Positions 3,156 through 39,564 of a DNA stretch of 64,000 nucleotides are shown piece after piece. Positions within the stretch are counted from its first letter, which is position 1. Every line of letters begins with the position of its first letter. The stretch is taken from NCBI RefSeq assembly GCF_002283365.1, contig NZ_MQWD01000005.1, positions 1-64,000 on the forward strand. Direction: 5' to 3'. A program made the position numbers and the translations under genes. This stretch comes from Rubrivirga marina (GTDB lineage Bacteria; Bacteroidota; Rhodothermia; Rhodothermales; Rubricoccaceae). A model generated the notes under the pieces. It was given only the letters and a program-made list of their open reading frames with translations. It did no database searches and had not been told where the DNA came from.

Positions 3156-5047
3156 CGCCCATGCGCCTCCTCTCAGCCCTCCTCGCCTTCCTGCTGCTGC
3201 TGGCACCCGCGCGCGCGTGGGCGCAGGCGGGCGCGGCCCCCGGGTCCAGCGCGGAGCGGGTCGGGGTCGAGGCGGCCCTGGAGGCGGACGGCGTGCGCCC
3301 CGGCGAGGCGCTCCGGGCCGCCGTCGTGCTGACGGTCGAGGACGGGTGGCACGTCAACGCGCACCGGCCGAGCGAGGACTACCTCATCGGGACGGAGGTC
3401 TCCCTCGACGGCCGCCCCGGGTTCCTCCTCGCCGACGCCCGGTACCCCCCCGCCCGTCCCGTGGCGTTCGCTTTCGCGGACGCGCCCCTCGACGTGTACG
3501 AGGGGACCGTGCCCGTCCTCCTCTCGATCCGCGTGGGGGACACCGTCGCGCCCGGGGCCTACGGGCTGGGCGTGACCGTTCGCGTCCAGGCCTGCAACGA
3601 CCGGGTCTGCCTCGCGCCGTCCACGCTCCGTGCGGAGGTCCCGGTCCGGGTCGTCCCGGCCGGGGCCGAGACCCGGCCGGTCCACGCCGACGTCTTCGCC
3701 GCCTACGAGTCCGCCGCCTACGGGGCCGCCGGGGCCGCCGGGGGCGCCGGGGCGCCGCCAGACGCGCCGCCGGGGGGCGGGCGCGTCGAGCGCCTGCTCG
3801 CCGAGCGCGGGCCGCTCTGGGCCTTCCTGGCCATCTTCGCGATCGGCCTGGCCCTCAACCTGACGCCGTGCGTGTACCCCATGCTCTCCGTCACGGTCTC
3901 CCTGTTCGGTACCCAGGGGGAGGTCGGCCTGGGACGGTCGTTCGGGCGGGCGTTCCTCTACCTCCTCGGGATCGTCACCACGTACAGCGTCCTCGGCGTC
4001 GCGGCGGCTCTCACGGGGAGCCTTTTCGGGGGGTGGCTCCAGAGCCCGTGGATGCTGGCCGGGATCGGGGCGCTCCTCTTCGGGCTGGCCCTCAGCGCGT
4101 TCGGGCTCTACGAGATCCGGCTGCCGTCGGCGCTGACGACCCGGCTCGGCGCGGCCCACCGCGCGACGGGACCGCTGGGCCTCTACCTGTCGGGGCTCGT
4201 GGTCGGCGTGTTCGCCGCGCCCTGCATCGGGGCGCCGGTCATCGCGCTCCTGGCGTTCGTCGGGACCCGGGGCGACCCCCTCTTCGGGCTGAGCGCGCTG
4301 TCGGTGCTCGCCCTGGGGCTCGGCCTGCCCTACCTCGTGCTGGGCACGTTCAGCGGGCTGCTCTCGCGGCTGCCTCGGTCCGGCGTCTGGATGGTGTGGG
4401 TCAAGAAGCTGTTCGGCGTCGTGCTCCTCGGGGCCGCCCTCTTCTACCTCGGCCTCGCGGTAGCCCCCGCCCGAGCGATCTACGCGGTGCCGCTCGCCCT
4501 CGTCGCCGGGGGGCTCTACCTCGGCTTCGCCGAGACGTCGGCCCGGCGGACCCCCGGGTTCCGGTGGGTCGCGAGGGCCGTGGGCGGGACGGCCGTGGTC
4601 CTGGGCCTCGCGGCGTTCGTTCAGTTTGGCGAGCCCGGCGTCGCCTGGAGGCCGTACTCGGACGCGGCGCTCCGCGACGCGCGGGCCGAGGGCCGCCCCG
4701 TCCTCCTCGACTTCACGGCCGACTGGTGCATCCCGTGCCTCGAGCTCGACCAGGTCACCTTCACCGACGGGGACGTCATCGAGGCGACCGGGGGGGTCGC
4801 CCGGCTCAAGGTGGACCTCACCCACTTCGATTCCCCAGGGGCCGAGGCCCTCCGCCAGCGGTTCGACGTGGCCGGGGTCCCGACGCTCGTGTTCCTCGGC
4901 CCCGGGGGCGACGAGGTCCCGGGCTCCCGCGTCGTCGGGTTCGTCGGGCCAGGCCCGTTCCTGGAGCACGTCGAAGGCGTCTGGCAGGAGCTCGCTCGTC
5001 GCCCGCCGCCCTCCTCCCGATCGGCCCCGGCCTCCCCATCGCCATGA
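3152..5047 (+). CDS. dsbD: Thiol:disulfide interchange protein DsbD
   Basis: A 631-residue DsbD. It has a signal peptide (residues 1-25) and an N-terminal DsbD-alpha domain (about 35-180) containing the Cys pair of QACNDRVC. About eight membrane segments follow (roughly 205-490), with the redox cysteines C240 (NLTPCVYP) and C358 (AAPCIGAP). The C-terminal thioredoxin domain has C526-I-P-C529. DsbD passes electrons from cytoplasmic thioredoxin to periplasmic partners. It overlaps the upstream PBP2 gene and the downstream TlpA gene by 4 bp each. In this setting it likely keeps copper-exposed periplasmic thiols reduced, as Scs-type proteins do; that role is inferred. Confidence 0.92.
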   Translation: MTPMRLLSALLAFLLLLAPARAWAQAGAAPGSSAERVGVEAALEADGVRPGEALRAAVVLTVEDGWHVNAHRPSEDYLIGTEVSLDGRPGFLLADARYPPARPVAFAFADAPLDVYEGTVPVLLSIRVGDTVAPGAYGLGVTVRVQACNDRVCLAPSTLRAEVPVRVVPAGAETRPVHADVFAAYESAAYGAAGAAGGAGAPPDAPPGGGRVERLLAERGPLWAFLAIFAIGLALNLTPCVYPMLSVTVSLFGTQGEVGLGRSFGRAFLYLLGIVTTYSVLGVAAALTGSLFGGWLQSPWMLAGIGALLFGLALSAFGLYEIRLPSALTTRLGAAHRATGPLGLYLSGLVVGVFAAPCIGAPVIALLAFVGTRGDPLFGLSALSVLALGLGLPYLVLGTFSGLLSRLPRSGVWMVWVKKLFGVVLLGAALFYLGLAVAPARAIYAVPLALVAGGLYLGFAETSARRTPGFRWVARAVGGTAVVLGLAAFVQFGEPGVAWRPYSDAALRDARAEGRPVLLDFTADWCIPCLELDQVTFTDGDVIEATGGVARLKVDLTHFDSPGAEALRQRFDVAGVPTLVFLGPGGDEVPGSRVVGFVGPGPFLEHVEGVWQELARRPPPSSRSAPASPSP

Positions 5048-14236: not shown

Positions 14237-14456
14237 GCGTCGGTCGTCGGGGTGGGGAGGAGCCGGTCACTGTGGGCACAAGCCAGGTCGGTCAGAGGGG
14301 GGGAGGGTGTAGACGGAGAGGGTGGAGTCGGCGGGGCTCGCCGTCCCCCCGCGGTGCCGGGCCGGTGGGCGAGCCCGTCAACGCGGCGGGCCGGAGCGCC
14401 CCCGGGTCGTGTCCCGGAACGGGGCCTCCGACTTCGACCCCTATCGAACCCTACCG

Positions 14457-17400
14457 ATGTCTCCTCTCGCTTCGCGGGCTACCCCGTCCGCCGTATCGCC
14501 CCACGTCGAACAGCTCGACCTCTTCGCCCTCCTCGCACCCCGCGTCCGGGCACTCGCCCCGCCCGTCAGGACGGAGCCCCTGCCTCGGCCGAGTGCCGCC
14601 GTCCCGTCGTGGCCCTTCGCGAGCACGTCTCCGGTGGCGGTCGAGGCCGCCGACGCGGACGTGCCCTCCGGCGCGCTCACGGCGAGCGTGTTCGACGCCT
14701 ACCGCCCGAGCGTCCGTGTCCCGGGCAGCCAGCCCCATCCCACGAAGCTCGTGGAGTCGGCGGCGATGGCCGCGGCCACGGCGCCCGAGTGCGACTACCG
14801 CCCGACGCTGCCCGAGCCCCTCGTGACCGGGGGCCACCTCTCCGACGCCCAGCTCGAGACCATCGTCCGAGCGGGCGCCGCGCACGCGGAGCACCTCCCG
14901 GGCGCCGGTGACGAGGTCGGCCCACGTCAGGGCTACTTCGTCGGCGACGCGACCGGGGTGGGGAAGGGGAGGCAAGCGGCGGGGGTCATCCTCGACAACG
15001 TCCTCCAGGGCCGCCGCCGGGCGCTCTGGGTGTCCGAGAACCGGAGCCTCATGCGCGACGCCGTCCGCGACTGGACCGCCCTCGGCGGCCCGGCCGACTT
15101 CGTCTTCGACCTCGGCGCGTGCAAGGGGCCGATCCCCCGCGCCGAGGGCGTCTGCTTCGCGAGCTACGACACGCTCAAGGGCAAGCCGCGCGAGAAGGGG
15201 GGCACCGTGACGGGCGTCGACCGACTGGAGCAGGTCGTCGCCTGGCTCACGGCCGGTGGTGACGAGGCCGGGTTCGAGGGCGTCATCGTCTACGACGAGT
15301 CGCACAACGCCGCTTCCGCCCTGGACACTCAGGGGAGCCGCGGGGTCAGGAAGGCGTCCCAGCGCGCGCTGGCGGTGGTCGATTTGCAAGACCGTCTCCC
15401 CAACGCCCGCGTCGTCTACGCGAGCGCGACCGGGGCCACCGAGGTCGCCAACCTCGCCTACGCCGCCCGCCTCGGGCTCTGGGGCCGGGGCACCCCGTTC
15501 CCGACCGTCGAGGCGTTCGTCGAGAAAGTCAGCGCGGGTGGCATCGCGGCGATGGAGCTGGTGGCGAAGGACCTCAAGTCGATGGGGCTCTACCTCGCGC
15601 GGTCCGTCTCCTACGACGGCGTCGACTACCGGACGCTCGTCCACGACCTCGCGCCCCACCAGGCGGCGACCTACGACCGCTGCGCCGAGGCGTGGCAGGT
15701 CGTCCTCCGGAATTTGGAATCGGCCTTGGAGGTCACGAAGGCCGACAAGTGCGGGAGAGCCAGAGCTACGGCGTACAGCCAGTTCTGGGGCGCCCACCAG
15801 CGGTTCTTCCTCCACCTCTTGGTCGCCATGAGCGCGCCGAGCCTCATCCGCGACATGGAGGCGAGGCTGGCCTCGGGCGAGAGCTGCGTCGTCCAACTCG
15901 TGTCCACGATGGAGGCGGCGACCGAGCGGGCCTACGCGAAGGCCGTGGCGAATGGTGATGATCTACGGGACCTCGACGTGACCCCGCGCGACCAGCTCCT
16001 GCAGTTCGTCGAGGCCTCGTTCCCGACCACGCTCTACGAGGAGTACCTCGACGACGACGGGCGCGTCCGGAGCCGTCCGGTACGGAGTGCGGCCGGGGAC
16101 TTCGTGCGGTCGCCTGAGGCCGTGGCCGCGAGAGACCGGCTCATGCTGGAGGTGGGCGCGGTGTCCGTCCCGCACGGCGTGCTCGACCAGGTCGTCGCCC
16201 ACTTCGGCCCCGACGCCGTGGCCGAGGTGACCGGCCGGGGCCGCCGGTTCGTGACCAAGACCGTCGACGGGGTGGAGCAGGTCGTGGAGGAGCGCCGGAC
16301 GCGGCGGACGTGCGACGCGGAGGCCGACGAGTTCATGGCGGGCAAGCGCCGCGTGCTCGTGTTCAGCCAGGCCGGGGGGACCGGCCGGAGCTACCACGCC
16401 GACCTCGCGGCCGAGAACCAGCAGCGCCGGGTGCTGTACTGCGTCGAGCCGGGCTGGAGCAGCGCCCGGTGCGTGCAGGGGATGGGCCGGGTCCACCGGG
16501 CGAACCAGGCGTGCCCGCCCGAGCTCGTCTTGGTCACGACCAACCTCAAGGCCCAGCGCCGCTTCCTCTCGACCATCGCCCGTCGGCTCGACCAGCTCGG
16601 CGCGCTCACGAAGGGCCAGCGGCAGACGGCGAGCCAGGGGCTCTTGTCGTCGGAGTTCAACCTCGAAACCCCGCTCTCGAAGGCCAGCCTGTTCAACTGG
16701 TTCGTCGACCTCTACACCGGGGGCGGCCGGGCCGGCGCGGCCGGGGTCACGCCGGCCCTCGTCGAGGGCCAGATGGGGATCCGGGTGCTCGACGCTGAGG
16801 GCTCGCTGAACGTCGAGGCGATCCCGGACGTCCCGAAGTTCCTCAACCGGCTCCTGTCCTTGAAGACGGGCTCGATGGACGCCGTCTTCGACTCGTGGTA
16901 CTCCTACTTGGAGGAGGCGACGGAGGCCGCGCGCGAGGCGGGGACGCTCGACGTGGGCGTCGAGACGATCCGGGCCGAGCGCACGCGCAAGACCGACGAG
17001 CGGCTCGTCTACACGCACCCCCGCTCGGGGGCCACGACGCAGGTGGTCACGTTGGAGTTGACCCGGCGGACGGAGATCGTGGACTGGGACGAGGTCTGGA
17101 CGCGAGCGAGGAAGGCGCAGGGGGCGGGCTCGTGGGCCGGGTTCGTCGTCAACCGCCGGAGCGGGCAGCCGTACGCGCTGTTCCGGGCCGGGAGCCGGAC
17201 GACCGAGACCGGCCGCGTCGTCGGGCGGCTCCGCCGTGTCGGCGTCCGCTCGAACCGGCTCATGGACGAGACGGACATCCACCGCTCCGGTGACGAGGGA
17301 GGCCACCAGCCCGTCCCGACGGACGAGGCGAAGCGGCTCTGGGCCGAGGGCGTCCGCTCGGCACCCGAGTTCTACACCGAGCCGGTCCACCTCGTGACCG

Positions 17401-17891
17401 GGACGATCCTCCCGATCTGGGACCGGATCGCCGGGCACCCGAGGATCTACCGGGCTCAAACGGACGGCGGCGAGCGCATGATCGGCCGGGCGGTAGCCGC
17501 AGAGCACCTGAGCGCGACGCTCCGGGCGCTCGGCGCGGCGGACCGCGTCGAGACGACGTCCGAGGCGCTGGCCCAGCGGCTCATGGCGGGTGCCGAGGCC
17601 GACCTCGCCAACGGCTGGCGGCTCCTCCGACGCCGCGTCGCCGGTGAGCACCGGATCGAGCTCGTGGGGCCGGACCTCGCGGCCATGCGCGAGCTGGAGG
17701 CCGACGGGGTCTTCGCCGAGGTCCACAACTGGCGGACGCGGTTCTTCGTCCCGACGGGCGAGCGCGCACCGGGCGTCCTCCGGGCGGTGACCGAGCACCG
17801 GCCCGTGGTCGAGGTCCGGAGTGGTCCGGCAACGGACCACCTCGGGGACCGAGGAGGGGAGACGGGCTACCCCGCTCGTCTCGCCGCCTGA
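14457..17891 (+). CDS. Strawberry notch-like SF2 helicase/ATPase
   Basis: An 1144-residue protein of the strawberry notch (SBNO) family found on large plasmids and phages. The first ATPase half has the Walker A-like site GDATGVGKGRQ (K170), the Walker B box Y-D280-E281-S-H283-N and the motif III-like VVYASATGATE. The second half has a long SBNO C-terminal helicase domain with the motif VI arginines in QGMGRVHRANQ. The ATG at 14457 is preferred over a GTG at 14322, since the upstream segment is low-complexity Arg/Gly. DNA remodelling during replication, transfer or defence evasion is suspected for the family; no precise reaction is established. It heads a run of same-strand cargo genes reaching 24.2 kb. 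Confidence 0.85.
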   Translation: MSPLASRATPSAVSPHVEQLDLFALLAPRVRALAPPVRTEPLPRPSAAVPSWPFASTSPVAVEAADADVPSGALTASVFDAYRPSVRVPGSQPHPTKLVESAAMAAATAPECDYRPTLPEPLVTGGHLSDAQLETIVRAGAAHAEHLPGAGDEVGPRQGYFVGDATGVGKGRQAAGVILDNVLQGRRRALWVSENRSLMRDAVRDWTALGGPADFVFDLGACKGPIPRAEGVCFASYDTLKGKPREKGGTVTGVDRLEQVVAWLTAGGDEAGFEGVIVYDESHNAASALDTQGSRGVRKASQRALAVVDLQDRLPNARVVYASATGATEVANLAYAARLGLWGRGTPFPTVEAFVEKVSAGGIAAMELVAKDLKSMGLYLARSVSYDGVDYRTLVHDLAPHQAATYDRCAEAWQVVLRNLESALEVTKADKCGRARATAYSQFWGAHQRFFLHLLVAMSAPSLIRDMEARLASGESCVVQLVSTMEAATERAYAKAVANGDDLRDLDVTPRDQLLQFVEASFPTTLYEEYLDDDGRVRSRPVRSAAGDFVRSPEAVAARDRLMLEVGAVSVPHGVLDQVVAHFGPDAVAEVTGRGRRFVTKTVDGVEQVVEERRTRRTCDAEADEFMAGKRRVLVFSQAGGTGRSYHADLAAENQQRRVLYCVEPGWSSARCVQGMGRVHRANQACPPELVLVTTNLKAQRRFLSTIARRLDQLGALTKGQRQTASQGLLSSEFNLETPLSKASLFNWFVDLYTGGGRAGAAGVTPALVEGQMGIRVLDAEGSLNVEAIPDVPKFLNRLLSLKTGSMDAVFDSWYSYLEEATEAAREAGTLDVGVETIRAERTRKTDERLVYTHPRSGATTQVVTLELTRRTEIVDWDEVWTRARKAQGAGSWAGFVVNRRSGQPYALFRAGSRTTETGRVVGRLRRVGVRSNRLMDETDIHRSGDEGGHQPVPTDEAKRLWAEGVRSAPEFYTEPVHLVTGTILPIWDRIAGHPRIYRAQTDGGERMIGRAVAAEHLSATLRALGAADRVETTSEALAQRLMAGAEADLANGWRLLRRRVAGEHRIELVGPDLAAMRELEADGVFAEVHNWRTRFFVPTGERAPGVLRAVTEHRPVVEVRSGPATDHLGDRGGETGYPARLAA

Positions 17892-18931: not shown

Positions 18932-19627
18932 ATGATCCGCACGTATTCCCGTCCGCACTACGCTCAGGCCCGGACCTGGACCCGCTTCGCGAACCGGCTC
19001 CGCCGGGCGTCGTGCCCCGCGTTCCACCCGTACCACATGAAGGAGCACGCCCTGAGGACCAGCCTCGGCCTCCGCACACGGGGCCTCGTCTTCCCGACCC
19101 GTCTCCAAGACTGCGTGCCCGCCGGGCTCGCCCGGCTCGCCGCTCGGGCCGCCGGAGGCGACCGGTACCCGGAGCTCGTGGCCCGCGTCGTCGTCACGGA
19201 CCCGGCCGAGCACGCGGCCGACGAGGTCCACCTGTTCCTCGAAGTGGCCGACCGGACGGGCACGATCACGGAGAAGCACCCGTTGGGCAAGCTCCCGCCG
19301 GAGGACGCCCTCTGGGTGGCCCCGCTCATCCGGCTCGAGTCCGACGCCTACGGGACCGGCCCGGTCCTCCGGTACCACGTGACCGGCGGCGAGGCCTCCG
19401 CCGCCGGTGGCGGCGGTGAGGTCCACGTCGCGATCAGCCGGGCGCACGAGGCGGCCAAGGCGTGGCTCGACTGGGCCGACGACCGGAAGGCCTGGGCCGA
19501 GGCCCACGCCGTCGCCGAGGAGAGCCCGTACGCCTACCGGGCGAGCTACCGCGACACGGTCGCGCCGGGGTCCAGCTACGGGAGCCTCCTCTACGCGACC
19601 GACCCGTACGCGGAGACCGAGGAGTAG
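18932..19627 (+). CDS. Hypothetical plasmid cargo protein
   Basis: A 231-residue protein of unknown function. It begins with a basic Tyr/Arg-rich segment (RTYSRPHYAQARTWTRFANRLRR) followed by a mixed alpha/beta region (PELVARVVVTDP, DEVHLFLEVADRTGTI) and an acidic helical C-terminus. No membrane segments, catalytic motifs or known domains were recognised. The ATG at 18932 is chosen because it follows an ACGAGGA-type sequence and avoids a low-complexity upstream extension. A strong intrinsic terminator lies 22 bp after the stop, so it may be transcribed alone or end a unit. Confidence 0.6.
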   Translation: MIRTYSRPHYAQARTWTRFANRLRRASCPAFHPYHMKEHALRTSLGLRTRGLVFPTRLQDCVPAGLARLAARAAGGDRYPELVARVVVTDPAEHAADEVHLFLEVADRTGTITEKHPLGKLPPEDALWVAPLIRLESDAYGTGPVLRYHVTGGEASAAGGGGEVHVAISRAHEAAKAWLDWADDRKAWAEAHAVAEESPYAYRASYRDTVAPGSSYGSLLYATDPYAETEE

Positions 19628-19649
19628 ACCCTGAGCCCACCGGCCTACA

Positions 19650-19687
19650 GCCCGGCGACCCCGAAGGGTCGCCGGGCTTCTTTTTTG
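19650..19687 (+). terminator. Rho-independent terminator
   Basis: A perfect 12-bp stem (19650-19661 with 19666-19677, arm GCCCGGCGACCC) closed by a CGAA tetraloop and followed by TTCTTTTTTG. This is a textbook intrinsic terminator on the plus strand, ending the transcript of 18932-19627. A second T-run (CTTTTTTG) follows about 15 bp later with the repeated context GCAACGG. Confidence 0.92.
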
Positions 19688-19861
19688 CCGCAACGGTCTT
19701 TTTTGTCGCAACGGAGGGTGGGGGAGGTGGGCTCTGGCGGTCCGGTCGGCGCGCGCCGTCGGCGAGGCGCGCCGCCCGGCCGCCCTAGAACCCGACGCGC
19801 GACGTGCGCTCCCCTCCATGACCGACTCGCCGACTCGACCTCCCCTCTTCCGGTCGGACCC

Positions 19862-20707
19862 GTGCTGACCGACCGCGTCCAGCGCTGGCGGTCCGGACGG
19901 GACCTCTACCGGCCAGCGGGCGAGCCCTTCGACCCCCAGGCCTACGAGGTCGCCCCGATCCCCGACGACACGACGGCCCGCGCGTTCGTCCAGGCCCACC
20001 ACTACAGCGGGTCGTACCCCGCCGCCCGGTTCCGGTTCGGGCTCTACGCCCGCGTCGGCGGGCGGACCGACCACGGTCCGTTGGTCGGCGTCGCCGTGTT
20101 CTCGGTCCCGCCCCGGCCCGAGGTCACGACGGCGTGGTTCCACGGCGACCCGCTCGCGCACGTCGAGCTCGGCCGGTTCGTCCTCCTCGACCACGTCCGG
20201 GCGAACGCCGAGTCGTGGACGCTCGCCCGGTGTTTCCGGCACCTCCGGCGGGAGGGGGTCGAGGGCGTCGTCTCGTTCTCCGACCCTGCGCCTCGCGTGG
20301 TAGAGGGACGTCGCGTGTTCGGGGGTCACATCGGGACGATCTACCAGGCCTCGAACGCCGTCTACGCCGGGCGGAGCCGGGCGCGGACGCTCCGGCTCCT
20401 CCGGGCCGGTCCCGACCGGGGCCGCGTGTTCTCCGACCGGGCCGCCTCGAAGGTCCGATCCGCCGACCGCGGCCACGCCTACGCCGTGGCCCAGTTGGTC
20501 GCGGCCGGGGCCGACCCGCCCGGGGCGATGGACTCGGACGCTCTCCGGGCGTGGGCCGGCCGCTGGGTCCCGCGCGTGACGGTCCCGATGCGGCACCCCG
20601 GCAACCACCGCTACCTCTTCGGGCTCCGCCGCGGGGTCCTCACCGGCCGCGCGCGGCGCGAGGCCCAGCCGTACCCCAAGCTCGACCTGTTCGGTCGGCC
20701 GAGGTGA
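19862..20707 (+). CDS. Mom-like DNA base-modification protein (GNAT-type)
   Basis: A 281-residue protein resembling the Mom family of phage and plasmid enzymes, which alter adenine in DNA to a carbamoylmethyl form and so block restriction. Visible family features are FVQAHHYSGSYPAARFRFGLY near the N-terminus, LVGVAVFSVP, ELGRFVLLDHVRANAESW, VVSFSDPAPR, HIGTIYQASNAVYAGRS and the C-terminal MRHPGNHRYLFGL. The assignment is by motif memory and needs a profile search. The GTG at 19862 is assumed. A 16-codon frame starting ATG at 19818 ends across this GTG, so the real start may lie there if translation is coupled or the read has an indel. Anti-restriction fits the RadC neighbour. Confidence 0.62.
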   Translation: MLTDRVQRWRSGRDLYRPAGEPFDPQAYEVAPIPDDTTARAFVQAHHYSGSYPAARFRFGLYARVGGRTDHGPLVGVAVFSVPPRPEVTTAWFHGDPLAHVELGRFVLLDHVRANAESWTLARCFRHLRREGVEGVVSFSDPAPRVVEGRRVFGGHIGTIYQASNAVYAGRSRARTLRLLRAGPDRGRVFSDRAASKVRSADRGHAYAVAQLVAAGADPPGAMDSDALRAWAGRWVPRVTVPMRHPGNHRYLFGLRRGVLTGRARREAQPYPKLDLFGRPR

Positions 20708-20745
20708 CGGGTCCGCCGACGTGGCGGTGCAGAAAGCGTGGTGGA

Positions 20746-20795
20746 GGGGCGCCCCCGCCCGCCGCTCCGGGCGCGTCGGCCGGCGGGGGCGCCCC
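20746..20795. repeat. Long GC hairpin before radC
   Basis: A perfect 14-bp inverted repeat, GGGGCGCCCCCGCC (20746-20759) and its complement (20782-20795), with a 22-nt loop. It lies 62 bp upstream of the radC ATG. No T-run follows. Same class as the hairpins before the genes at 18007, 21810 and 22233. Confidence 0.75.
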
Positions 20796-20857: not shown

Positions 20858-21703
20858 ATGCCAATCGACAACCCCAACGCTGGTCGCTCCGCAGAGAGCG
20901 GCGGCCTGACCGCAGGGGGCCGCTTGACGGCCCTCAACCTCCACGTGCTCCGCGACATCGAGGCGAAGATGCCCGAGGGCGGAGACCGCGTCGGCGGCGA
21001 GCCCGCCGTGCCCCAGCCCTCGCTCACCCGTCGTGAGCGGTACCACGCGCGCCGTCTCGCCGTCCGCGGACGGCTCCGCCGTGTGGAGACCGACGCGCCG
21101 TGGTTCGCCCGGCGGACCGTGCTCTACGGCTCGGTCCCCGAGCCCTCCGTGCCAGGCTCGCGAGGGGCCGACCCCCAATCCGTCGTCCGAGAGCCCGTCG
21201 CTGCGCTCCGCCAGCCCGACGTGCACGGGAACACAGCTCACGGTGCCTACCGCGACGCCCTGTTCTCCGGCGTCCCGCTCTACACGACCCGGCTCGTCCG
21301 CGAGCGGACGTTCACGTTCCCGACGAGGGACCAAGTTCGCTCGCCGGCCGACGCGGCCGTCGTGCTCGCCGAGTACTTCTCCGACCGAGACAGGGAGGAG
21401 TTTTTAGTCGTTTTTCTCGATACTGCAAACTCCCTTACGGGTTTACATGTGGCTAGCGTAGGCGGGCTCGCGGCGTCGATCGTCGAGCCGAGGCAGGTGT
21501 TCAAGGCGGCCGTCCTCGCCAACGCGGCGGCCGTGATTTTGGCCCACAACCACCCCTCCGGCAACCCGGAGCCGAGCCGGGAGGACGTGGCCGTGACGCG
21601 CCAGCTCGTCGAGGCGGGGAAGGTCATGGGCGTCCCGGTCCACGACCACCTCATCATCACCGACCACGGGCATACGAGCCTGGCGGAGAGGGGACTGATG
21701 TAG
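20858..21703 (+). CDS. radC: RadC-family JAB-domain protein
   Basis: A 281-residue protein. The C-terminal 130 residues form a RadC/JAB (MPN+) domain with the metal-binding signature AHNHPSGNPEPSREDV (HNH-P-S-G with a downstream Asp) preceded by SVGGLAASIVEPRQVFKAA. The N-terminal half is a poorly conserved basic region. RadC proteins are very common on plasmids and phages and are often linked to anti-restriction, but their biochemical role is unresolved. About 75 bp inside the JAB domain (near 21398-21470) use TTA, GTA, TTT and CTT codons and are far poorer in GC than the rest, a hint of patch transfer. Confidence 0.85.
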   Translation: MPIDNPNAGRSAESGGLTAGGRLTALNLHVLRDIEAKMPEGGDRVGGEPAVPQPSLTRRERYHARRLAVRGRLRRVETDAPWFARRTVLYGSVPEPSVPGSRGADPQSVVREPVAALRQPDVHGNTAHGAYRDALFSGVPLYTTRLVRERTFTFPTRDQVRSPADAAVVLAEYFSDRDREEFLVVFLDTANSLTGLHVASVGGLAASIVEPRQVFKAAVLANAAAVILAHNHPSGNPEPSREDVAVTRQLVEAGKVMGVPVHDHLIITDHGHTSLAERGLM

Positions 21704-21809: not shown

Positions 21810-22127
21810 ATGAGCACGCCCGCTACCCCGACCGTACGGTCCACCGACCGCCCCGCCCGCATCCCGCTCGGCCACGTCGTCGCGACGACGGGCGCCCTCG
21901 ACGTCGTCCGTGCCCACGGGCTCGACGTCGTGGGGCTCCTCCACCGTCACCGGGCCGGGGACTGGGGCGACGTCTGCGAGGGCGACGCGCTCGCCAACGA
22001 CCTCGCCCTCGATCCGGCGTGTCCGGCCCGGGTCCTCTCGGCCTACGAGACGGCTGGCGGTCGGCTCTGGGTCATCACCGAGGCCGACCGCTCGGCGACG
22101 ACGGTCCTCCTGCCCTCGGAGTATTAG
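21810..22127 (+). CDS. Plasmid-associated small conserved protein
   Basis: A 105-residue cytoplasmic protein belonging to a small family frequently seen on large plasmids and often labelled only as plasmid-related. Characteristic blocks are the N-terminal PLGHVVATTGALDVVRAHG, the central HRAGDWGDVCEGDALAND and the C-terminal RLWVITEADRSATTVLLPSEY. Its function is not known. It lies between radC and a DUF6166 gene with a strong hairpin on each side. Confidence 0.75.
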   Translation: MSTPATPTVRSTDRPARIPLGHVVATTGALDVVRAHGLDVVGLLHRHRAGDWGDVCEGDALANDLALDPACPARVLSAYETAGGRLWVITEADRSATTVLLPSEY

Positions 22128-27693: not shown

Positions 27694-30600
27694 ATGCTCA
27701 CATCCGACAGCCCGCCCCACTCCGACGAGGACGTAGACCCCGAGGCGCTCGACACGTTCATCGAGCGCTGGCGGCCCGCCCAGGCCGCCGAGATCGCCAA
27801 CGCCCAGCCGTTCCTGATCGAGCTGGCGGCGCTCTTGGGCGTGCCCGGCCCCGAGCCCGCGACGAAGGACCCGGCCCGCGACGGGTACGTGTTCGAGCGG
27901 CCCGTCGACTTCCAGGACGCCGCCGACGCCGGGACCGGTCGGATCGACCTCTACAAACGGGGGTGCTTCGTGCTGGAGACGAAGCAGGGCGTCGACGCCG
28001 AGAACGCGGCCCGCGCCAGGGGGAAGGGGAAGAGCCGGTCGGCGGGCCACGGCCGACGCGGGACGCCCGCCTGGGACCGGACGCTCGCCGCGGCCAAGCG
28101 CCAGGCTGAGCGGTACGCCCGGAACCTCGACCTCGACGGCCACCAGGAGCCCGTCCCGCCGCTCGTGATCGCCTGCGACGTCGGGTACTGCCTCGACCTC
28201 TACGCCAACTTCGGCCACCCCCAGCGCTATGTCCCGTTTCCCGACAACCGGACGTACCGCGTCACGCTCGACGACCTCCGCGACCCCGACGTCCGCGAGC
28301 GGCTCCGGCTCGCGTGGACCGACCCCGAGGCGCTCGACCCGGCCCGGCGGCAGGCCGCCGTCACGCGCGAGCTCGCGGCCACGCTCGCCGAGCTGGCGGC
28401 GAGCCTGGAGGCGTCCGGCGCCGCGCCCGACGCCGTGTTCGGGTTCCTCTCGCGGAGCCTGTTCACGATGTTCGCCGAGGACGCCCGGCTCATCCCGGAG
28501 CGCTCGTTCTCCGGGCTCCTCGCCGAGTACCGCGACCACCTCGACGTCCTGCCGGACGCGCTCTCGGACCTCTGGGCGACGATGGACGGCGGCGGGTTCT
28601 CGGCCGCTCTCAAGGCCAAGCTCCGCCGGTTCAACGGCGGCCTCTTCGCCGAAACGCAAGCGCTCCCGCTCGACGCCCACCAGCTCGACCTCCTCCTCGC
28701 CGCGGCCGAGGCCGACTGGCGCGAGGTCGAGCCGGCCATCTTTGGGACGCTCCTGGAGCGGGCGCTCGACCCCCGCGAGCGCCACAAGCTCGGCGCCCAC
28801 TACACCCCCCGCGCCTACGTCGAGCGGCTCGTCGTGCCGGCTGTGGTCGACCCGCTCCGGGAGGAGTGGGACGCGGCGCAGGCGGCCGTGGCTCAGATCG
28901 AGGCTGAGGCCGCCGAGAGCGCGCCCGAGGGCGGGAAGGCCCTCGACGCCCACGACCGGGCCACCCGCCGCGCCGTCCTCGCCGAGCTCCGCCGCTACCT
29001 CACCCGGCTGACGTCGGTCCGCGTGCTCGACCCGGCCTGCGGCTCGGGCAACTTCCTCTACGTCACGCTCGAGCACCTCAAGCGGATCGAGGGCGAGGTC
29101 CAGGCCGCGCTCGCCCGCTACGGCGTCTCCGGGCTCGACCTCGAAGGGGCCGCCGTGACGCCGGCGCAGCTCCTCGGCATCGAGGTCAACCCCCGCGCGG
29201 CGGCCATCGCCGACCTCGTGCTCTGGATCGGGTATCTCCAGTGGCACCTCCGCACGCACGACGGGCCGCAGGGCCTCTCCGACCCGGTCCTCAAGGCCTA
29301 CGGCAACGTCGAGTGCCGCGACGCCGTCCTGGCCTACGACGCCAAGACGCCCCGCCTCGGGGGCGACGGCGAGCCGGTGACGACGTGGGACGGCCGGACC
29401 ACCAAGACGCACCCCACGACGGGCGAGGAGGTCCCGGACCCCGACGCGCGCACGACGATCTACGACTATGAGGGTGCCCGCCCCGCCAATTGGCCCCAGG
29501 CCGACTTCATCATCGGCAACCCGCCCTTCGTGGGGTCGAAGCGGATGCAGAGCGTGCTCGGCGACGGGTACGCCCAGGCCCTCCGCGACGCCTACCCCGC
29601 TCTCCCTAACGGCTCGGACTACGTGATGTACTGGTGGCACCGCGCCGCCGAGGCGGTCCGCGAAGGGGAGGCCGAGCGGTTCGGGCTCATCACGACCAAC
29701 TCGATCTCGCAGACACAGAGCCGACGCGTCGTCGCCTACCACGTCGCCGGCGAGGGCGGCAAGAAGGCGCCCCCGCCGCTCGCGCTCGCCGTCGCCGTCC
29801 CCGACCACCCCTGGGTGGACGACGTGTACGCCGCCGCCGTGCGCGTGGCGATGACCGTCGGCGTCCGCGGCCCCGCCGAGGGCGTCGTCGTCGCCGTCGA
29901 GCTGGCGAAGGGCAGCGAGGACGCGCCGGAGGAGGAGCCCCGCCACGCCGAGGTCGTCGTCGAGCGCGGGACGGTCTACTCCGACCTCCGCGCGGGCGTG
30001 GACCCGTCGCTCCTCGCCCCGCTCCGGGCCAACGAGAACATCTCCCACACGGGCGTCCAGACGAACGGGGCGGGGTTCGAGATCGACCCCGACCGCCGCG
30101 CCGAGTTCGAGGCCGACGGCGCGAGCCACACCCTCCTCAAGACGTTCTGGGGCGGGACCCAGATCAAGAAGGGCGCCCCCCGCGACAAGCTCGTCATCGA
30201 CACCTTCGGCCTCTCGCTCGACGAGCTCCGCGACGGCTACCCCGTCGCCTACGGCCACCTCTACGACACGGTCAAGCCGGAGCGCGACGTGAACAACCGG
30301 CCCAAGATCCGCGACCTCTGGTGGATCCACGCCTGGGAGCGCCCCGAGATGCGGAAGGCGACCGCCGGGCTCGCGCGCTACCTCGGGACCGTCGAGACCT
30401 CGAAGCACCGGTACTTCGCCTACCTCGACGCCGACGCGCTCACGAACAACTCGGCCGTCGTCCTCGCCGTCGAGGACCCGTACCACTTCGGCGTTCTGTC
30501 GAGCCGGATCCACACGACGTGGGCCGTCGAGAAGGGGGGGACGTTGGAGGACCGGCCGCGCTACACGCACACCGAGGTCTTCCACCGCTTCCCGTTCCCC

Positions 30601-31242
30601 GACGCCACGGACGAGCAAAAGGAGGCGATTCGAGACGCGGCCACGCGCCTCGACGCCCACCGTACGCGCGTGCTCGCCGCCCACCCTCACCTCGATTACA
30701 CGGCCGTCTACGACGCCGTCGAGGCCGACCGGGCCGCGGCGGCAGGGGAGGGGGAGCCGCTGGACGCGGGGAAGCAGAAGCTCCACCGCGACGTCGGCGC
30801 GACCCTCCTCCGCCAGATCCACGACGACCTCGACCGGGCCGTCGCCGACGCCTACGGCTGGCCCGTCGACCTCGAGCCCGCCGAACTGGTCCGGCGCCTG
30901 TCCACGCTCAACATCGAGCGCCAGGCCGAGGAGGCCGCCGGGCTCGTCCGCTACCTCCGCCCGGCGTTCCAGGCCCCCGGCGAGACGACGCAGGCCGAGA
31001 TCGAGCTCGCTACGCCAGAGGCCGTCGCCAGCTCGGTCGAGCCCGAGCCGTGGCCGTCCGACACGGCCACGCGGGCGCTCGCCCTCCGCCGCGTGCTCCG
31101 CGAGGCCGACCGGCCGATGACGGTCGAGGCCGTCGCCCGCCGGTTCAAGCGCGCCCCCCGCGCCGCCGTCGCCGACCTCCTCGACACGCTCGCCTCGCTC
31201 GGCCAGGCCCGCCGCGCCGACGCCGACACCTTCGCCGCTTGA
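27694..31242 (+). CDS. Type IIG restriction-modification enzyme (MmeI-like)
   Basis: An 1182-residue single-chain enzyme that should both cut and methylate DNA. Near the N-terminus a PD-(D/E)xK nuclease site is visible (D85, E95-T-K97 in IDLYKRGCFVLETKQG). The AdoMet motif I is D446-PACGSGNF and the catalytic motif IV is N609-P-P-F612, indicating N6-adenine methylation. A long target-recognition region follows (about 700-1000), and the C-terminus ends in a winged-helix-like segment (MTVEAVARRFKRAPRAAVADLL). The ATG at 27694 begins the conserved region. The stop overlaps the next ATG by one base (TGATG), linking it with the SEFIR gene. It is intact and probably protects against unmodified phage DNA. 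Confidence 0.88.
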   Translation: MLTSDSPPHSDEDVDPEALDTFIERWRPAQAAEIANAQPFLIELAALLGVPGPEPATKDPARDGYVFERPVDFQDAADAGTGRIDLYKRGCFVLETKQGVDAENAARARGKGKSRSAGHGRRGTPAWDRTLAAAKRQAERYARNLDLDGHQEPVPPLVIACDVGYCLDLYANFGHPQRYVPFPDNRTYRVTLDDLRDPDVRERLRLAWTDPEALDPARRQAAVTRELAATLAELAASLEASGAAPDAVFGFLSRSLFTMFAEDARLIPERSFSGLLAEYRDHLDVLPDALSDLWATMDGGGFSAALKAKLRRFNGGLFAETQALPLDAHQLDLLLAAAEADWREVEPAIFGTLLERALDPRERHKLGAHYTPRAYVERLVVPAVVDPLREEWDAAQAAVAQIEAEAAESAPEGGKALDAHDRATRRAVLAELRRYLTRLTSVRVLDPACGSGNFLYVTLEHLKRIEGEVQAALARYGVSGLDLEGAAVTPAQLLGIEVNPRAAAIADLVLWIGYLQWHLRTHDGPQGLSDPVLKAYGNVECRDAVLAYDAKTPRLGGDGEPVTTWDGRTTKTHPTTGEEVPDPDARTTIYDYEGARPANWPQADFIIGNPPFVGSKRMQSVLGDGYAQALRDAYPALPNGSDYVMYWWHRAAEAVREGEAERFGLITTNSISQTQSRRVVAYHVAGEGGKKAPPPLALAVAVPDHPWVDDVYAAAVRVAMTVGVRGPAEGVVVAVELAKGSEDAPEEEPRHAEVVVERGTVYSDLRAGVDPSLLAPLRANENISHTGVQTNGAGFEIDPDRRAEFEADGASHTLLKTFWGGTQIKKGAPRDKLVIDTFGLSLDELRDGYPVAYGHLYDTVKPERDVNNRPKIRDLWWIHAWERPEMRKATAGLARYLGTVETSKHRYFAYLDADALTNNSAVVLAVEDPYHFGVLSSRIHTTWAVEKGGTLEDRPRYTHTEVFHRFPFPDATDEQKEAIRDAATRLDAHRTRVLAAHPHLDYTAVYDAVEADRAAAAGEGEPLDAGKQKLHRDVGATLLRQIHDDLDRAVADAYGWPVDLEPAELVRRLSTLNIERQAEEAAGLVRYLRPAFQAPGETTQAEIELATPEAVASSVEPEPWPSDTATRALALRRVLREADRPMTVEAVARRFKRAPRAAVADLLDTLASLGQARRADADTFAA

Positions 31243-32711
31243 TGGCCGACGCCGACGACCGCCCCCAGGGACCGCGCACGTTCCTCTTGTACAGCTGGAG
31301 CAGCCCCGAGCACGAGGACTGGGTGCTCCGCCTCGCCACCGACCTCGTGGACCTCGACCTCGACGTCGTCCTCGACAAGTGGGACCTCTAGGACGGCGAC
31401 GACCCGTACCCCTTCATGGAGCGGATCGTGACCGACCCCGCGCTGGGGAAGGTCGTCCTCGTCTGCGACCGCGAGTACGTCCGCAAGGCGGACGCCCGCG
31501 AGGGCGGGGTCGGCACCGAGGCCCAGATCCTCACGACCGAGCTCTACCGCGCCGCCCAGACCGACCCGGACGCTCCGGACCACCAGAAGGCGGAGACGCG
31601 GAAGTTCGTCGCCGTCCTCCGCGAGCGGCCCGAGCCCGGTGGGCGGGCCACGCCGGCGTTCTACGGCGGGCGCATCCACATCGACATGGTCGACGACGAG
31701 GGCTACGGCGATGCCCTCACCCGCCTCGCGCGCTGGATCTACGACAAGCCGCCCCACGTCCGGCCGTCCCGTGGCAAGGCGCCCGCGTTCGTCACCGACG
31801 GCGACGCCCCGACGACGAGCACGTCCGTCCGCCAGCGCTACGCGATCAAGGCCCTCCGCGAGGGCCGTCGCGAGGCCGATGGGGCCGTCGACGACTACTT
31901 CGAGACGTTGGCCGAGAACCTGCCCCGGTTCGACCTCGACCCCGAGGACGACCGCCCGATCCAGACCGCCGTCGTCGAGCGCGCCGACCAGCTCCGGCCG
32001 GTTCGGGACGAGGCCCTCGGTGTCCTCAAGGCGCTCGTCCGCTACCGGCCCGCCCCGGAGGGGTGGGAGCCGGTCCACCTGTTCTTCCAGCGGTGCCTCC
32101 CGCTTCTCGAACCGCTGTTCGTGAACCACCGGGCCAACTCCTGGAATCGCGACCACTTCCGCCTCTCCGTCCCCGAACTGTTCCTCTACGCCCTCGCCCT
32201 GCTCGTCCAGCGCCGCCGCTACGAGACCGCGGCGTACATGCTCTCCGAGCCGTTCACGCTCCCCGAGAGCAGTCGGGGCAGCGGGCTCGTCCCGTTCACG
32301 TACCTCCAGCAGGGGTCCGAGGCCCTCCGCCGGTACCACCAGGACCGGAACGAGCGGTGGATCAGCGACCAGGGCACGTGGCTCCACGGCCGGGCCGACT
32401 CCTCCGGTGTCCCCTTCGACGCCGTCATGCAGGCCGACCTCGTCCTCGCCCTCCGCGCGGCGGGCAGCGACCTCGGTTACTGGTGGCCGAGCACCCTCGT
32501 CTACAAGGCGCGGCGGCACGGGACGTTCGACGTCTTCGCCCGGTCGGTCTCGCGGGAGCACTTCGAGCGCCTGAAGCCGATGCTCGGCGTGTCGTCCGCC
32601 GACGAGATCCGCCAGCGGGCGAGGGGGATGGGGCGGGACGGCTGGATTCACGACCACGACGTCTACGTCCCAGGGCTCATCGGCGACGAGCAGCTAGCCA
32701 CCGTCCCGTAG
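31242..32711 (+). pseudogene. SEFIR-domain protein interrupted by an amber codon
   Basis: The frame starts at the ATG overlapping the type IIG stop and encodes a SEFIR domain: TFLLYSWSSPEHEDWV, then VVLDKWDL. Codon 50 (31389-31391) is TAG, exactly where the family continues with a short polar residue before the Gly-Asp-Asp block; the same frame resumes at once with DGDDPYPFMERIVTDPALGKVVLVCD and runs to 32711. One base change (for example AAG, CAG or GAG to TAG) explains it. Downstream residues 180-489 form a helical C-terminal region of unknown function. SEFIR genes are known anti-phage effectors. Here function would need suppression, or restart at the ATG at 31416, which loses the first half of the domain. 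Confidence 0.85.
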
Positions 32712-32769: not shown

Positions 32770-33885
32770 GTGAAAGAGTTCGAGCTCGCTCCCCTCGCGG
32801 CGGACCGCCTCCTCTCCGTCCTCGACGGCGTCCCCGCCATCGAGAGCGTCGAGGTGCTGGACGGGGCCGGGATGGGTCGGTCCCTCGAGGGAGGGGGGAC
32901 GCTCCACGCCGAGATCCTCGCCGTCGTCCGCCTGACCGGTGGCGAGACCCACACGCTCGTCGTCGACGTCAAGCGCGTCGGGCACCCCCGGTACGGCCGA
33001 CTCTCGGCCGCGTGGTTCGGGCGGCGTCTCCCCGTCGCGTACGAGGAGGGGCTCCCCAACCCGTACCCCGTCTTCGCCGCTCCCTACGTCTCGGACCGGG
33101 GGGCCGCCGTCGCGGCGGAGGAGGGGATGGGCTACTTCGACCTCGCCGGGAACGCCCGCCTCGCCTTCGGCCCCGTCTACGTCGAGCGGTCCGGGCACAC
33201 GAACCCCGACCCGGAGGGCCGCCCGCTCGCCTCGCTCTTCGCGCCGAAGACCTCCCGCGTCGCCCGCGCCCTCCTCGCCCACCCCGCCCGCGCCTGGCGG
33301 CTCCAGGAGCTCGCCGACGAGGTCGACGTGAGCATCGGGCTCGTCGCCAAGGCCAAGGAGTCGCTCCTCGACGCCGAGTACGCCCGCGATACGCCCGATG
33401 GCCTCGCCCTCGCCGACCCCGACGGCCTCGTCGACGCTTGGCTCGCCGCCGACCGCCGCCGGCCGAAGCCGCGCGGCTACTACTCCCTCGACGGCGTCGC
33501 TGACGCCGAGCGCCGCGTCTGCGACGCCGTCCGGGCCTCTGGCGCACGCGCCGCGCTCACGTCGTTCTCGGGTGCCGAGCGCGTGGCCCCCCACGTCCGC
33601 TACTCCCACGCGAGCGTCCTCGTCGAGGCGGACGCTCTGGAGGAGGTCGCGGAGCGCGCGGGGCTCCGGCCCGTCGAGACCGGCGCCAACGTCCGCCTCC
33701 ACGAGCCCTACGACAACGGCGCGTTCTACGGAGCGCGGGACGTCGACGGTCTCCCCGTCGCCCACCCAGTCCAACTCGTCCTCGACCTCGCACGGGAGAA
33801 GGGGAGGGGAGAGGAGGCCGCCGACCACCTCCGCCGCCACGCCCTCGCGCCCACCTGGGCCGACCTCCGCCCGGCACGCCGATGA
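32770..33885 (+). CDS. AbiEi-type antitoxin
   Basis: A 371-residue protein starting at GTG. Its middle has a winged helix-turn-helix (KTSRVARALLAHPARAWRLQELADEVDVSIGLVAKAKESLL), as in type IV antitoxins that neutralise a nucleotidyltransferase toxin and repress the operon. The N-terminal part contains a nuclease-fold-like block (HTLVVDVKRVGHPRYGRLSA). The C-terminal part has HPVQLVLDLA, which is also found in AbiEi-like regulators. Its stop overlaps the toxin start by 4 bp (ATGA), and a perfect operator-like dyad lies just upstream. Confidence 0.75.
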   Translation: MKEFELAPLAADRLLSVLDGVPAIESVEVLDGAGMGRSLEGGGTLHAEILAVVRLTGGETHTLVVDVKRVGHPRYGRLSAAWFGRRLPVAYEEGLPNPYPVFAAPYVSDRGAAVAAEEGMGYFDLAGNARLAFGPVYVERSGHTNPDPEGRPLASLFAPKTSRVARALLAHPARAWRLQELADEVDVSIGLVAKAKESLLDAEYARDTPDGLALADPDGLVDAWLAADRRRPKPRGYYSLDGVADAERRVCDAVRASGARAALTSFSGAERVAPHVRYSHASVLVEADALEEVAERAGLRPVETGANVRLHEPYDNGAFYGARDVDGLPVAHPVQLVLDLAREKGRGEEAADHLRRHALAPTWADLRPARR

Positions 33886-35930: not shown

Positions 35931-37691
35931 CTACTCAGGAGCGATGCTCGGCTCAGAGGGTGGGGAATGCGAATAGAGATCCGATATTCTTGCGGCGTCA
36001 GCCCGGTGCTGCCGGCGTCTGAGGAACACCAGGTTCCGAGCCTCGCGGATCTCACCGAGTGCTCGGTCGGTCAGCCACGGCGTGTGCTCAGAAAGCGCTC
36101 GGTCGACGGCTTCGGTGGCGAGGTGCCCATCACCAGCGCGCATCATTGTGTCGACCCGGGGTGCGAGGTCGGCGGCGATGCGGTCAGGAAGGAGGGGGAC
36201 TAGGAGCTTCGACGTCTCGCCTGGCTCCACCTTGAGAATCCCCCCGCCGTAACTCCGGCCGACTAGTTCGGCACTGAGTTGGCTCAGAGATGAGAGCATC
36301 CCCAGTGCCAAGGGCAGCCACGGGTCCTCTTCTCTCGTCCGCTCTGGGCCAAAGAGAGAAGGGTGCCGCCCCGCTTCGGGCCAGTCGAGCCGGATGATGT
36401 TGTTGGTGCACGTCGCTCGGGACCGATTCACCACGATCCGCGGCCAGGATGCGGACATGCAGTGCATGAACGCGGGGGGCGTCTCGGTGTGCGGGACGGA
36501 GTACCACGGGTCTCGGATTTGACACTTGTGTGCCCCGTCCACGCCGTTCTGCTCGCCCTCATCGAGGTACGTCTGAAGCGGACTTGGGACGTGGTCGCCC
36601 TTGGCGATGGTGAGGAGGAGCGACCGGGTCTCCCCTGAGAGGTGACTGTCGATGTCGTCGTCAGTCGCGATGAGGCCGGGGAGTTGGGCGAGCTTTCGGA
36701 CAACGGGCTTGAACCACTCGGCGGGAATCTCACGGCGGTCCCGCTCATCGGGCGACATGACGAAGAACCCGTTGTTGCCCGTGACGACCCCAATCCGTGG
36801 CACAGCCACGTCTCGGAGGCGGACGACGCCGTCCGCGTTCGCCAAGTCGTCGTACAGCCGTTCTTGCTCCGGCGACAGGAGGGCGCGCATCCACCCCCCC
36901 ACGTCTCCGCTCGCCGCGAATGGACGTGTGTGCCGGTCGAGGTCCGAGAGAACCGTGGCGAGCGCCTCTGTCCCCTCCACGTCCCCGACCCGGACCTCCT
37001 CGTTTGGGAGGTGAGCCCCGTCCCCACACACGACGACGGCCTCCTCGTCCGTGTGCTCGAAGAGGCGCTCTCGGATCGGGAGAACGTAGACCGTTTTGAA
37101 CAGCCGCGAGAGCTGCTCACGAACGCCAACCGCGTAATCCGTGTGGAGGAACGCCCCCGGCAGAATCATCGCGAGGCGTCCGCCCTCCTCTAGGAAATGC
37201 GCCGAGTAGAGGAGGAAATACGCCCAGTAGCTGGCCCGCCCGGAAACGCTGAGTCCCTGATTGTTGAGGGCCTTGATCGCGACCGCTTTCGCATTTCTCG
37301 GGATGTAGTGGTACCGGATGAAGGGGGGGTTCCCGATCACGGTAGAGAACCGTGCGGTTGGGAAGTCGCAGGGCGTGACCTCCATGAAGTCACTCTCCAC
37401 AAATTGGCTCGGTTCAGCCCCTGCGCGGAGAAGGGGGGGGAGGTACCCCTTCGCACCGGGGTCGACGTCGACCCCGTAGATCTGGCGAGCGGGGACCGTC
37501 GCACCGGCCTCGTCTAGAGCCACCATCGCCGCGTTGAAGAACGCGCACCCCCCGTAGCTCGGGTCGAGCACCGTGTCGTCCGCGCGGCGGACGGCCCACC
37601 GAGCGAGCGCCGTCGCTACGGGGAGCGGCGTGTAGAACGAGCCGAGCTCTCGGCGGCGCTCGGGGGTCATCTCGATCAACGGCTCACTCAT
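35931..37691 (-). CDS. N6-adenine DNA methyltransferase (operon gene 4)
   Basis: A 586-residue class I methyltransferase of the N6-adenine type. It starts with the Eco57I-like entry block LGSFYTPLPVATALARWAV. Motif I is D43-PSYGGCAFF (a variant of DPxxGxG seen in several defence methylases) and motif IV is N121-P-P-F124. A long C-terminal region carries target-recognition-like features. No nuclease motif is seen, so it would act as a modifier or as a DNA-binding sensor. Its ATG at 37691 overlaps the upstream gene stop by 8 bp. It is the last gene of the four-gene minus-strand operon that ends at 35931. Confidence 0.85.
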   Translation of the reverse strand: MSEPLIEMTPERRRELGSFYTPLPVATALARWAVRRADDTVLDPSYGGCAFFNAAMVALDEAGATVPARQIYGVDVDPGAKGYLPPLLRAGAEPSQFVESDFMEVTPCDFPTARFSTVIGNPPFIRYHYIPRNAKAVAIKALNNQGLSVSGRASYWAYFLLYSAHFLEEGGRLAMILPGAFLHTDYAVGVREQLSRLFKTVYVLPIRERLFEHTDEEAVVVCGDGAHLPNEEVRVGDVEGTEALATVLSDLDRHTRPFAASGDVGGWMRALLSPEQERLYDDLANADGVVRLRDVAVPRIGVVTGNNGFFVMSPDERDRREIPAEWFKPVVRKLAQLPGLIATDDDIDSHLSGETRSLLLTIAKGDHVPSPLQTYLDEGEQNGVDGAHKCQIRDPWYSVPHTETPPAFMHCMSASWPRIVVNRSRATCTNNIIRLDWPEAGRHPSLFGPERTREEDPWLPLALGMLSSLSQLSAELVGRSYGGGILKVEPGETSKLLVPLLPDRIAADLAPRVDTMMRAGDGHLATEAVDRALSEHTPWLTDRALGEIREARNLVFLRRRQHRADAARISDLYSHSPPSEPSIAPE

Positions 37692-38460
37692 CACGTTCTC
37701 GCTCCGTGAGGGCCGGGTTGTCCCAGTAGTGGAGCACGCACTCATCCCGCTGGATGGCTTGGAGTGATCGCTCGAGGTACGACCTCAACGCTCCGCCCTC
37801 GCTCCTCTTCACGGCCGCCGTCCACTGCGAGTCGCCGACGAGCTTCTGATGGAGGTCCGGGTAGAAGTTGGACGCGACGATGTCGCACGCCAGCACGAGG
37901 TCGATGGGAGGCGCAGGTAGGCGGGGGATGGAGATCACCCGTGTGAGCCACGGGAACTCGTCATCGCGGGGCTCCCCCCCGAACTGAAGGTGGAACCGCG
38001 GGCCAGGTTGTGAACGCGGCGTGGGGCCGTCCTCGACGTTGGCCCGGTCGTAGTGGCAGCGGTGGATGACCCGGCCCCCGTAGCGAGCCGTCTCGATGGC
38101 GTCGAGGAGAACAGGATCACCTTCGCATGGACTCGCTTCCAGAGCGGCCCTCTCGTGTGGGTGAAGGAACGGTTCGTCGATGTCGGTCCACACCCTGATC
38201 TTCAGGTCCTGCTGGGATGGAAGCGGGTCGTCGCCCTCCCACCGGACATCGCAGTACAAGTCAACCCACACGTCTCGGGCGAGTTCGCCGTAAGGAACGG
38301 GCGCGAACGCGAGGGGCGCCTCGGGGTAGATGACGAACGCGCGCGACGAATACGTCTTCGCCTCCGCCTCCGCGATGACCGCGAGGGCGCCATCGCGAAG
38401 GACGCTCCCCATCGACCGGCGTACCTCTTGGAGTCCCTTCCGGATCTGTGACGGGCTCAT
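37684..38460 (-). CDS. Unknown protein of the double-GHKL operon (gene 3)
   Basis: A 258-residue soluble protein I do not recognise. It has a short coiled N-terminus (SPSQIRKGLQEVRRSMGSVL), mixed alpha/beta blocks (VWVDLYCDVRWEGDDPLPSQQDLKIRVWTDID, FHLQFGGEPRDDEFPWLTRVISIPRLPAPPIDLVLACDIVASNF) and a helical C-terminus. A cluster of Trp, Asp and His residues could form a binding pocket, but no catalytic motif is identifiable. It overlaps the receiver-like gene by 4 bp and the methylase by 8 bp, so it is co-translated with both. Its lack of known family makes it the most informative unknown of the operon. Confidence 0.6.
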   Translation of the reverse strand: MSPSQIRKGLQEVRRSMGSVLRDGALAVIAEAEAKTYSSRAFVIYPEAPLAFAPVPYGELARDVWVDLYCDVRWEGDDPLPSQQDLKIRVWTDIDEPFLHPHERAALEASPCEGDPVLLDAIETARYGGRVIHRCHYDRANVEDGPTPRSQPGPRFHLQFGGEPRDDEFPWLTRVISIPRLPAPPIDLVLACDIVASNFYPDLHQKLVGDSQWTAAVKRSEGGALRSYLERSLQAIQRDECVLHYWDNPALTERERDE

Positions 38461-39563: not shown

Positions 39564-39564
39564 G

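Follow-up and report, generated by a model that had tools for sequence, protein, structure and literature searches.

A conjugation-type plasmid of Rubrivirga marina encodes a long-form enzyme of the Mom family, and we think it highly probable that the gene is a one-gene cargo insert whose product modifies DNA for protection. The sequence and the structural model cover family, fold, active site, insertion, and selection, and from these we infer base modification and protection. The window analyzed here is 64 kb long and is the start of a 170,049-base contig. The gene, mom, is placed as follows.

19862 to 20707, plus strand: long-form Mom-family DNA modification enzyme, 281 amino acids, open from a GTG start at 19862 to the stop at 20707 (assigned by profile, structure, and ortholog start).

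Assignment to the Mom family, proposed in an earlier note, is borne out by profile, structure, and active-site residues. The blocks that the note had named were located at residues 46 to 53 (HHYSGSYP), 102 to 110 (ELGRFVLLD), 157 to 165 (IGTIYQASN), and 245 to 253 (HPGNHRYLF), and the profile search that it had proposed, when run, gave a score far past chance, 86.8 bits against Pfam Mom (PF25680; E value, 2.1e-24; curated cutoff, 27.1). Mom was the sole Pfam family to match the protein at an E value of ≤1, and thus no unrelated acetyltransferase family, the alternative that the note had raised, was found. Moreover, PHROG family phrog_1384 ("Mom-like DNA modification protein") matched residues 26 to 273 (E value, 2.6e-26), and an hhalign comparison with Mom of phage Mu returned a probability of 98.3 (E value, 1.6e-14). 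PADLOC gave no match for the protein. A sequence search of solved structures found only ankyrin and designed proteins at the C-terminal helices, and we read these matches as chance hits within Ala-rich sequence. Between window mom and its ortholog in a genome of the same genus (G003), dN/dS is ~0.32 (dN, 0.22; dS, 0.68); relative to that ortholog, the gene is, on this sequence measure, under purifying selection.

The predicted structure points to the same family. The AlphaFold model of window Mom, built from 63 sequences, has a mean pLDDT of 92.7, and its best match in the PDB is Mu Mom (8bv8; Z score, 18.1; 201 residues; 3.6 Å), with the runner-up GNAT structure at a Z score of 12.1; Foldseek against 8bv8 gave an E value of 5.4e-11. 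As modeled, window Mom has the GNAT fold of the Mom family and is closest to the solved Mu protein. Besides Pfam family and fold, it shares with Mu Mom (NP_050657.1) the motifs HYS, E..R, N.E[ST], SF.D, G..YQASN, and YPK and a Ser at the position of Mu S124; this residue, S118 of window Mom, aligns with the Ser changed in the PDB entry, which is titled "inactive mutant S124A." Moreover, H47, Y48, R105, E117, D141, and Y161 are identical in all 63 aligned long forms, rows that were picked for full length, and are the same in Mu. We conclude from the alignment that window Mom keeps the Mu-type active-site residues.

The earlier note also placed mom on a plasmid, and here too the evidence agrees. 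Conjugation genes on the contig encode a MobA/VirD2-type relaxase and homologs of VirD4/TraG, VirB9/CagX, VirB4, and VirB11, and the contig also encodes an S26-type peptidase like TraF, ParA, and an RPA-type initiator. The replicon with mom has a relaxase, a coupling protein, type IV secretion ATPases, and a partition gene together, and 32 kb separate the relaxase gene from mom.

53153 to 55147, plus strand: MobA/VirD2-type relaxase (PF03432, E value of 2.8e-26; PF22863).

The ends of a same-genus contig, G003:C11 (113,154 bases), match each other, with a shared end at 50 bases but not at 100. The window contig is without matching ends, and its two ends align to neighboring stretches of G003:C11. 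Both contigs are probably circular, judging from these alignments. The relaxase, the type IV secretion genes, ParA, the RPA-type initiator, and the matching ends of G003:C11 together bear out the plasmid location.

Within the plasmid, mom sits between two genes of a conserved module, and the features around it are these.

14409 to 17891, plus strand: strawberry-notch-type helicase, anchor of the conserved module (PF13872, E value of 4e-101; PF13871, E value of 1e-73).

18932 to 19627, plus strand: upstream plasmid-module gene, MIRTYSRPHYAQ..., adjoining radC in four mom-less contigs.

19649 to 19678, plus strand: intrinsic terminator of the upstream gene, a 13-pair stem with a T tail.

19681 to 19714, no strand: tandem repeat of two TTTTTTGYCGCAACGG copies (16 bases, period 18) at the left edge of the mom insert.

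19697 to 20742, no strand: mom insert, ~1,046 bases (~1.05 kb), defined against contigs without mom at this place.

20858 to 21703, plus strand: RadC-like JAB-domain protein, downstream neighbor of mom (PF04002, E value of 1.4e-41).

The insert was delimited against mom-less contigs G001:C7, G004:C10, G004:C14, and G007:C141, a subset of the helicase-bearing contigs, plus G003. On the left, blastn homology breaks at 19694 to 19696 in G001, G004:C10, and G003 and earlier, at 19613 to 19614, in G004:C14 and G007; on the right, homology to the window picks up again at 20743 to 20748 in all five comparison contigs. The gap between the breaks is what places mom within an insert. In related contigs, the conserved module consists of the strawberry-notch helicase, small genes, radC, and a further open reading frame. 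The helicase occurs in 6 of 20 genomes, counting its own, with several helicase contigs in one genome, and has relatives in 631 plasmid records. The radC gene adjoins the homolog of the upstream gene in the four mom-less contigs and in G003, with 219 to 258 nucleotides between the matches, and the upstream gene itself had no match in Pfam or PHROG. The terminator is strong, is also found in related mom-less contigs, and is predicted from its sequence to isolate mom from upstream transcription. The first TTTTTTGYCGCAACGG copy belongs to the conserved terminator tail, and no exact copy beyond the two of the tandem repeat occurs in the 4.98-Mb assembly. The G003 copy of mom is at another site, downstream of a homolog of the window open reading frame at 21810 to 22127. 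An RNA family search found none in the window and none in locus L014, and a sigma-70 scan, a model that may not suit the promoter type of this organism, found no promoter-like site on the plus strand. We note that radC of G003 is interrupted by ~3.35 kb (about 84615 to 87969 of G003:C11, within L014), a piece that by eye contains a tyrosine-recombinase-like frame.

How Mom might serve a plasmid is suggested by phage Mu. Mu Mom adds a bulky tag to DNA, hiding it from bacterial restriction enzymes; iron and acetyl-CoA are used, and the product is carbamoylmethyl-adenine. By analogy, it is reasonable to infer an anti-restriction role for window Mom. Expressed probably from a promoter within the insert (19697 to 19861), the enzyme would, in the donor cell, attach a Mom-type group at N6 of numerous adenines in plasmid DNA and probably also in host DNA. 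The transferred strand would then reach the recipient already modified, and the hemimodified duplex would be a poor substrate for the restriction enzymes of the recipient. To evade restriction, plasmids are known to use DNA mimics and also orphan methyltransferases. Protection by a bulky Mom-type base modification would be broader, as few restriction enzymes can read it. Anti-defense genes in plasmid leading regions, orphan methyltransferases among them, protect entering DNA (PMC11541004); a word search of that study gave no occurrence of Mom, and none of the papers covered by our literature search was seen to describe a Mom gene carried by a conjugative plasmid. Further literature cited for the mechanism is PMC6483171, PMC5512222, and PMC11602122. 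If active, Mom would disturb sequencing-based methylation calls and the cloning of such plasmids, and it offers a natural set of variants with which to work out the unusual Mom chemistry. Moreover, as the empty-site comparison shows mom arriving alone, a transfer benefit is directly testable with and without mom.

Whether the enzyme does what Mu Mom does is complicated by features of the long forms. Window Mom has 281 amino acids, versus 241 in Mu Mom, and unlike Mu it has an N-terminal QRW hairpin and a longer loop with R145; its helices between residues 192 and 239 mostly fall in gaps of the aligned Mu sequence. R145, H156, K197, H245, and G247 are specific to the long forms and the same in all 63 that were aligned. 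H156 stands where Mu has R154, and R145, K197, H245, and the hairpin fall outside the Mu-aligned part; window Mom could therefore differ from Mu Mom in the group that it transfers or in its target sequence. Moreover, at the position of Mu S124, 39 of the 63 long forms have Thr and the other 24 have Ser. Perhaps, then, the protein is a Mom-fold acyl or carbamoylmethyl transferase of diverged chemistry, acting at a different base position or transferring a different group but still protective. We hold that reading to be possible but doubtful, as the core Mu residues are retained, Mu Mom leads the structural matches by far, and the invariance was counted on rows chosen for full length. A small-molecule or protein substrate, as for an ordinary GNAT acetyltransferase, would fit the GNAT fold and is very improbable: no non-Mom Pfam family reached an E value of ≤1, Mu Mom scored far above other GNAT structures, and relatives of the protein are located among DNA modification genes.

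The plasmid itself raises another alternative to a long-form Mom that protects the plasmid during transfer. A type IIG restriction-methyltransferase (27694 to 31242) and a type II methyltransferase (35931 to 37691) are encoded on the same contig, and mom could consequently have another role, serving a modification-based attack-and-protect pair, formed with the type IIG enzyme or some other nuclease, rather than the evasion of host defense. Mom-endonuclease proteins in which a Mom domain is fused to a nuclease are described from jumbo phages (PMC7824862), which speaks for the pairing; window Mom has the Mom domain of those proteins without a fused nuclease. There is, however, no nuclease in the insert or beside mom, which is alone in its insert, and the type IIG gene, 7 kb off, has its own methyltransferase. 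We consider such a pairing improbable and retain the single-gene protective Mom as the preferred reading.

Where long-form Moms are found suggests traffic between phages and plasmids. Matches to window Mom by tblastn occurred in 84 of 72,556 plasmid records, 57 of them at a coverage of at least 80%, and in 30 of 50,697 phage records, of which only 1, an unverified fecal scaffold, reached that coverage. A pattern scan of IMG/VR, however, gave 70 long-form mom loci in viral contigs. The best IMG/VR relative, L036, is 62% identical across residues 1 to 274 of window Mom, and aligned plasmid homologs are up to 48% identical; long forms from IMG/VR and PLSDB resemble window Mom over their full length and have the same N- and C-terminal elements. 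A scan of genome contigs found five Mom loci, one of them on the G003 plasmid. The own genome has a single mom copy, and counting that genome, mom is present in 2 of 60 relatives (2 of 9 at the family level). Thus, mom is not a core plasmid function. In the tree, window Mom, the same-genus plasmid Mom, and viral L036 cluster together (support, 100/99). A single plasmid-only clade is ruled out, as plasmid rows are interspersed with viral rows, and this scatter makes repeated exchange of mom between phages and plasmids likely, as far as the sequences tell. Among the phage-type genes close to relatives are those for a terminase (L057) and a DnaB helicase (L079). One might go further and propose that the long form is a separate, widespread branch of hypermodification with its own chemistry or target, citing the invariant QRW hairpin, R145, H156, K197, and H245, and that it travels as a plasmid-borne single-gene cassette through which DNA enters hosts premodified while being largely missing from cultured-phage records. 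We offer that proposal tentatively, as something that could be true but probably is not.

Relatives differ from window mom in what lies upstream. Phage long-form mom often overlaps the upstream gene, with the upstream frame often ending 4 to 7 nucleotides inside mom, whereas window mom stands alone behind a terminator. As the DNA is G+C rich, many upstream open reading frames in relatives are probably spurious, and only those with homology were kept. A C5-methyltransferase homolog, an identity checked by Pfam on three proteins, occurs in 18 of 69 mom loci (including L047, L101, and L088), and in 7 of the 69 its gene ends exactly 4 nucleotides inside mom, two of the seven being near-identical. 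In Charybdis elements, a MOM-like protein is in an accessory module with methyltransferase, PAPS-reductase-like, and SprT-like genes (PMC12324425), and these gene types recur near some relatives of window Mom. Charybdis is a virus-like marine element, however, whereas window mom is on a conjugation-type plasmid. We note that in L093 a DpdA-like protein (2545 to 4320; 7-deazapurine in DNA) is encoded upstream of a long-form mom, and L093 is possibly a phage with two DNA modifications.

How translation of mom begins was a further subject of the earlier note, which presumed the GTG start and proposed that a small frame across it couples or limits translation.

19818 to 19868, plus strand: 16-codon ATG frame, MTDSPTRPPLFRSDPC, probably not a functional gene (chance level, not conserved).

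The GTG start is supported by alignment with the G003 ortholog, which has an ATG at the matching codon; in many relatives the match begins at query residue 1, and starts as assigned among 65 relatives are 41 ATG, 19 GTG, and 5 TTG. Given the G003 start and the matches from residue 1, no frameshift from ATG 19818 into Mom needs to be invoked. The small frame exists as described (ATG at 19818 to TGA at 19866 to 19868, overlapping the GTG by 7 nucleotides), but the regulatory proposal was unsupported. A leader is suggested by ATG 19818 being, by eye, the first ATG past the upstream terminator, by the frames that end just inside mom in relatives, those of C5-methyltransferases included, and by Mu, where com overlaps the mom start. 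Frames of this kind are at chance level, however: of the arbitrary ATG/GTG codons in the window, 39 of 1,171 on the plus strand and 38 of 1,324 on the minus strand have an out-of-frame ATG frame running across them, 14% of shuffled upstream sequences give a comparable frame across the start, and such a frame lies over the start of 9 of the 152 genes predicted on the contig and, mom included, of 3 of the 73 without a close upstream gene. Moreover, the G003 ortholog has no small out-of-frame ATG frame across its mom start, such frames occur in 11 of 65 relatives, and that of L036 is the last part of an upstream gene of some 90 codons that has no likeness to the 16-codon frame. Window mom is plasmid-borne and without com, the single Cys of the 16-codon frame is too few for a Com-like zinc finger, and Mu-like control by Com is ruled out by the lack of a zinc-finger frame over the start. 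We conclude from the sequence comparisons that the frame is most likely incidental; that it is a leader coupling or limiting translation is unlikely.

Other genes on the mom plasmid deserve mention. The type IIG gene (PADLOC E value, 0) is adjoined by bSEFIR (31416 to 32711) and AbiE-like antitoxin (32770 to 33885) genes, and the three are a defense island. The region from 35931 to 41901, which has a lower G+C content, also encodes, besides the type II methyltransferase, proteins of 258 and 368 amino acids and a protein with a HATPase domain at each end (39565 to 41901), with an integrase adjoining at 43195 to 44253. It is possibly an unlisted defense island. Finally, contig G000:C5 encodes at 62551 to 72998 proteins that by eye resemble RND efflux and membrane-fusion components.
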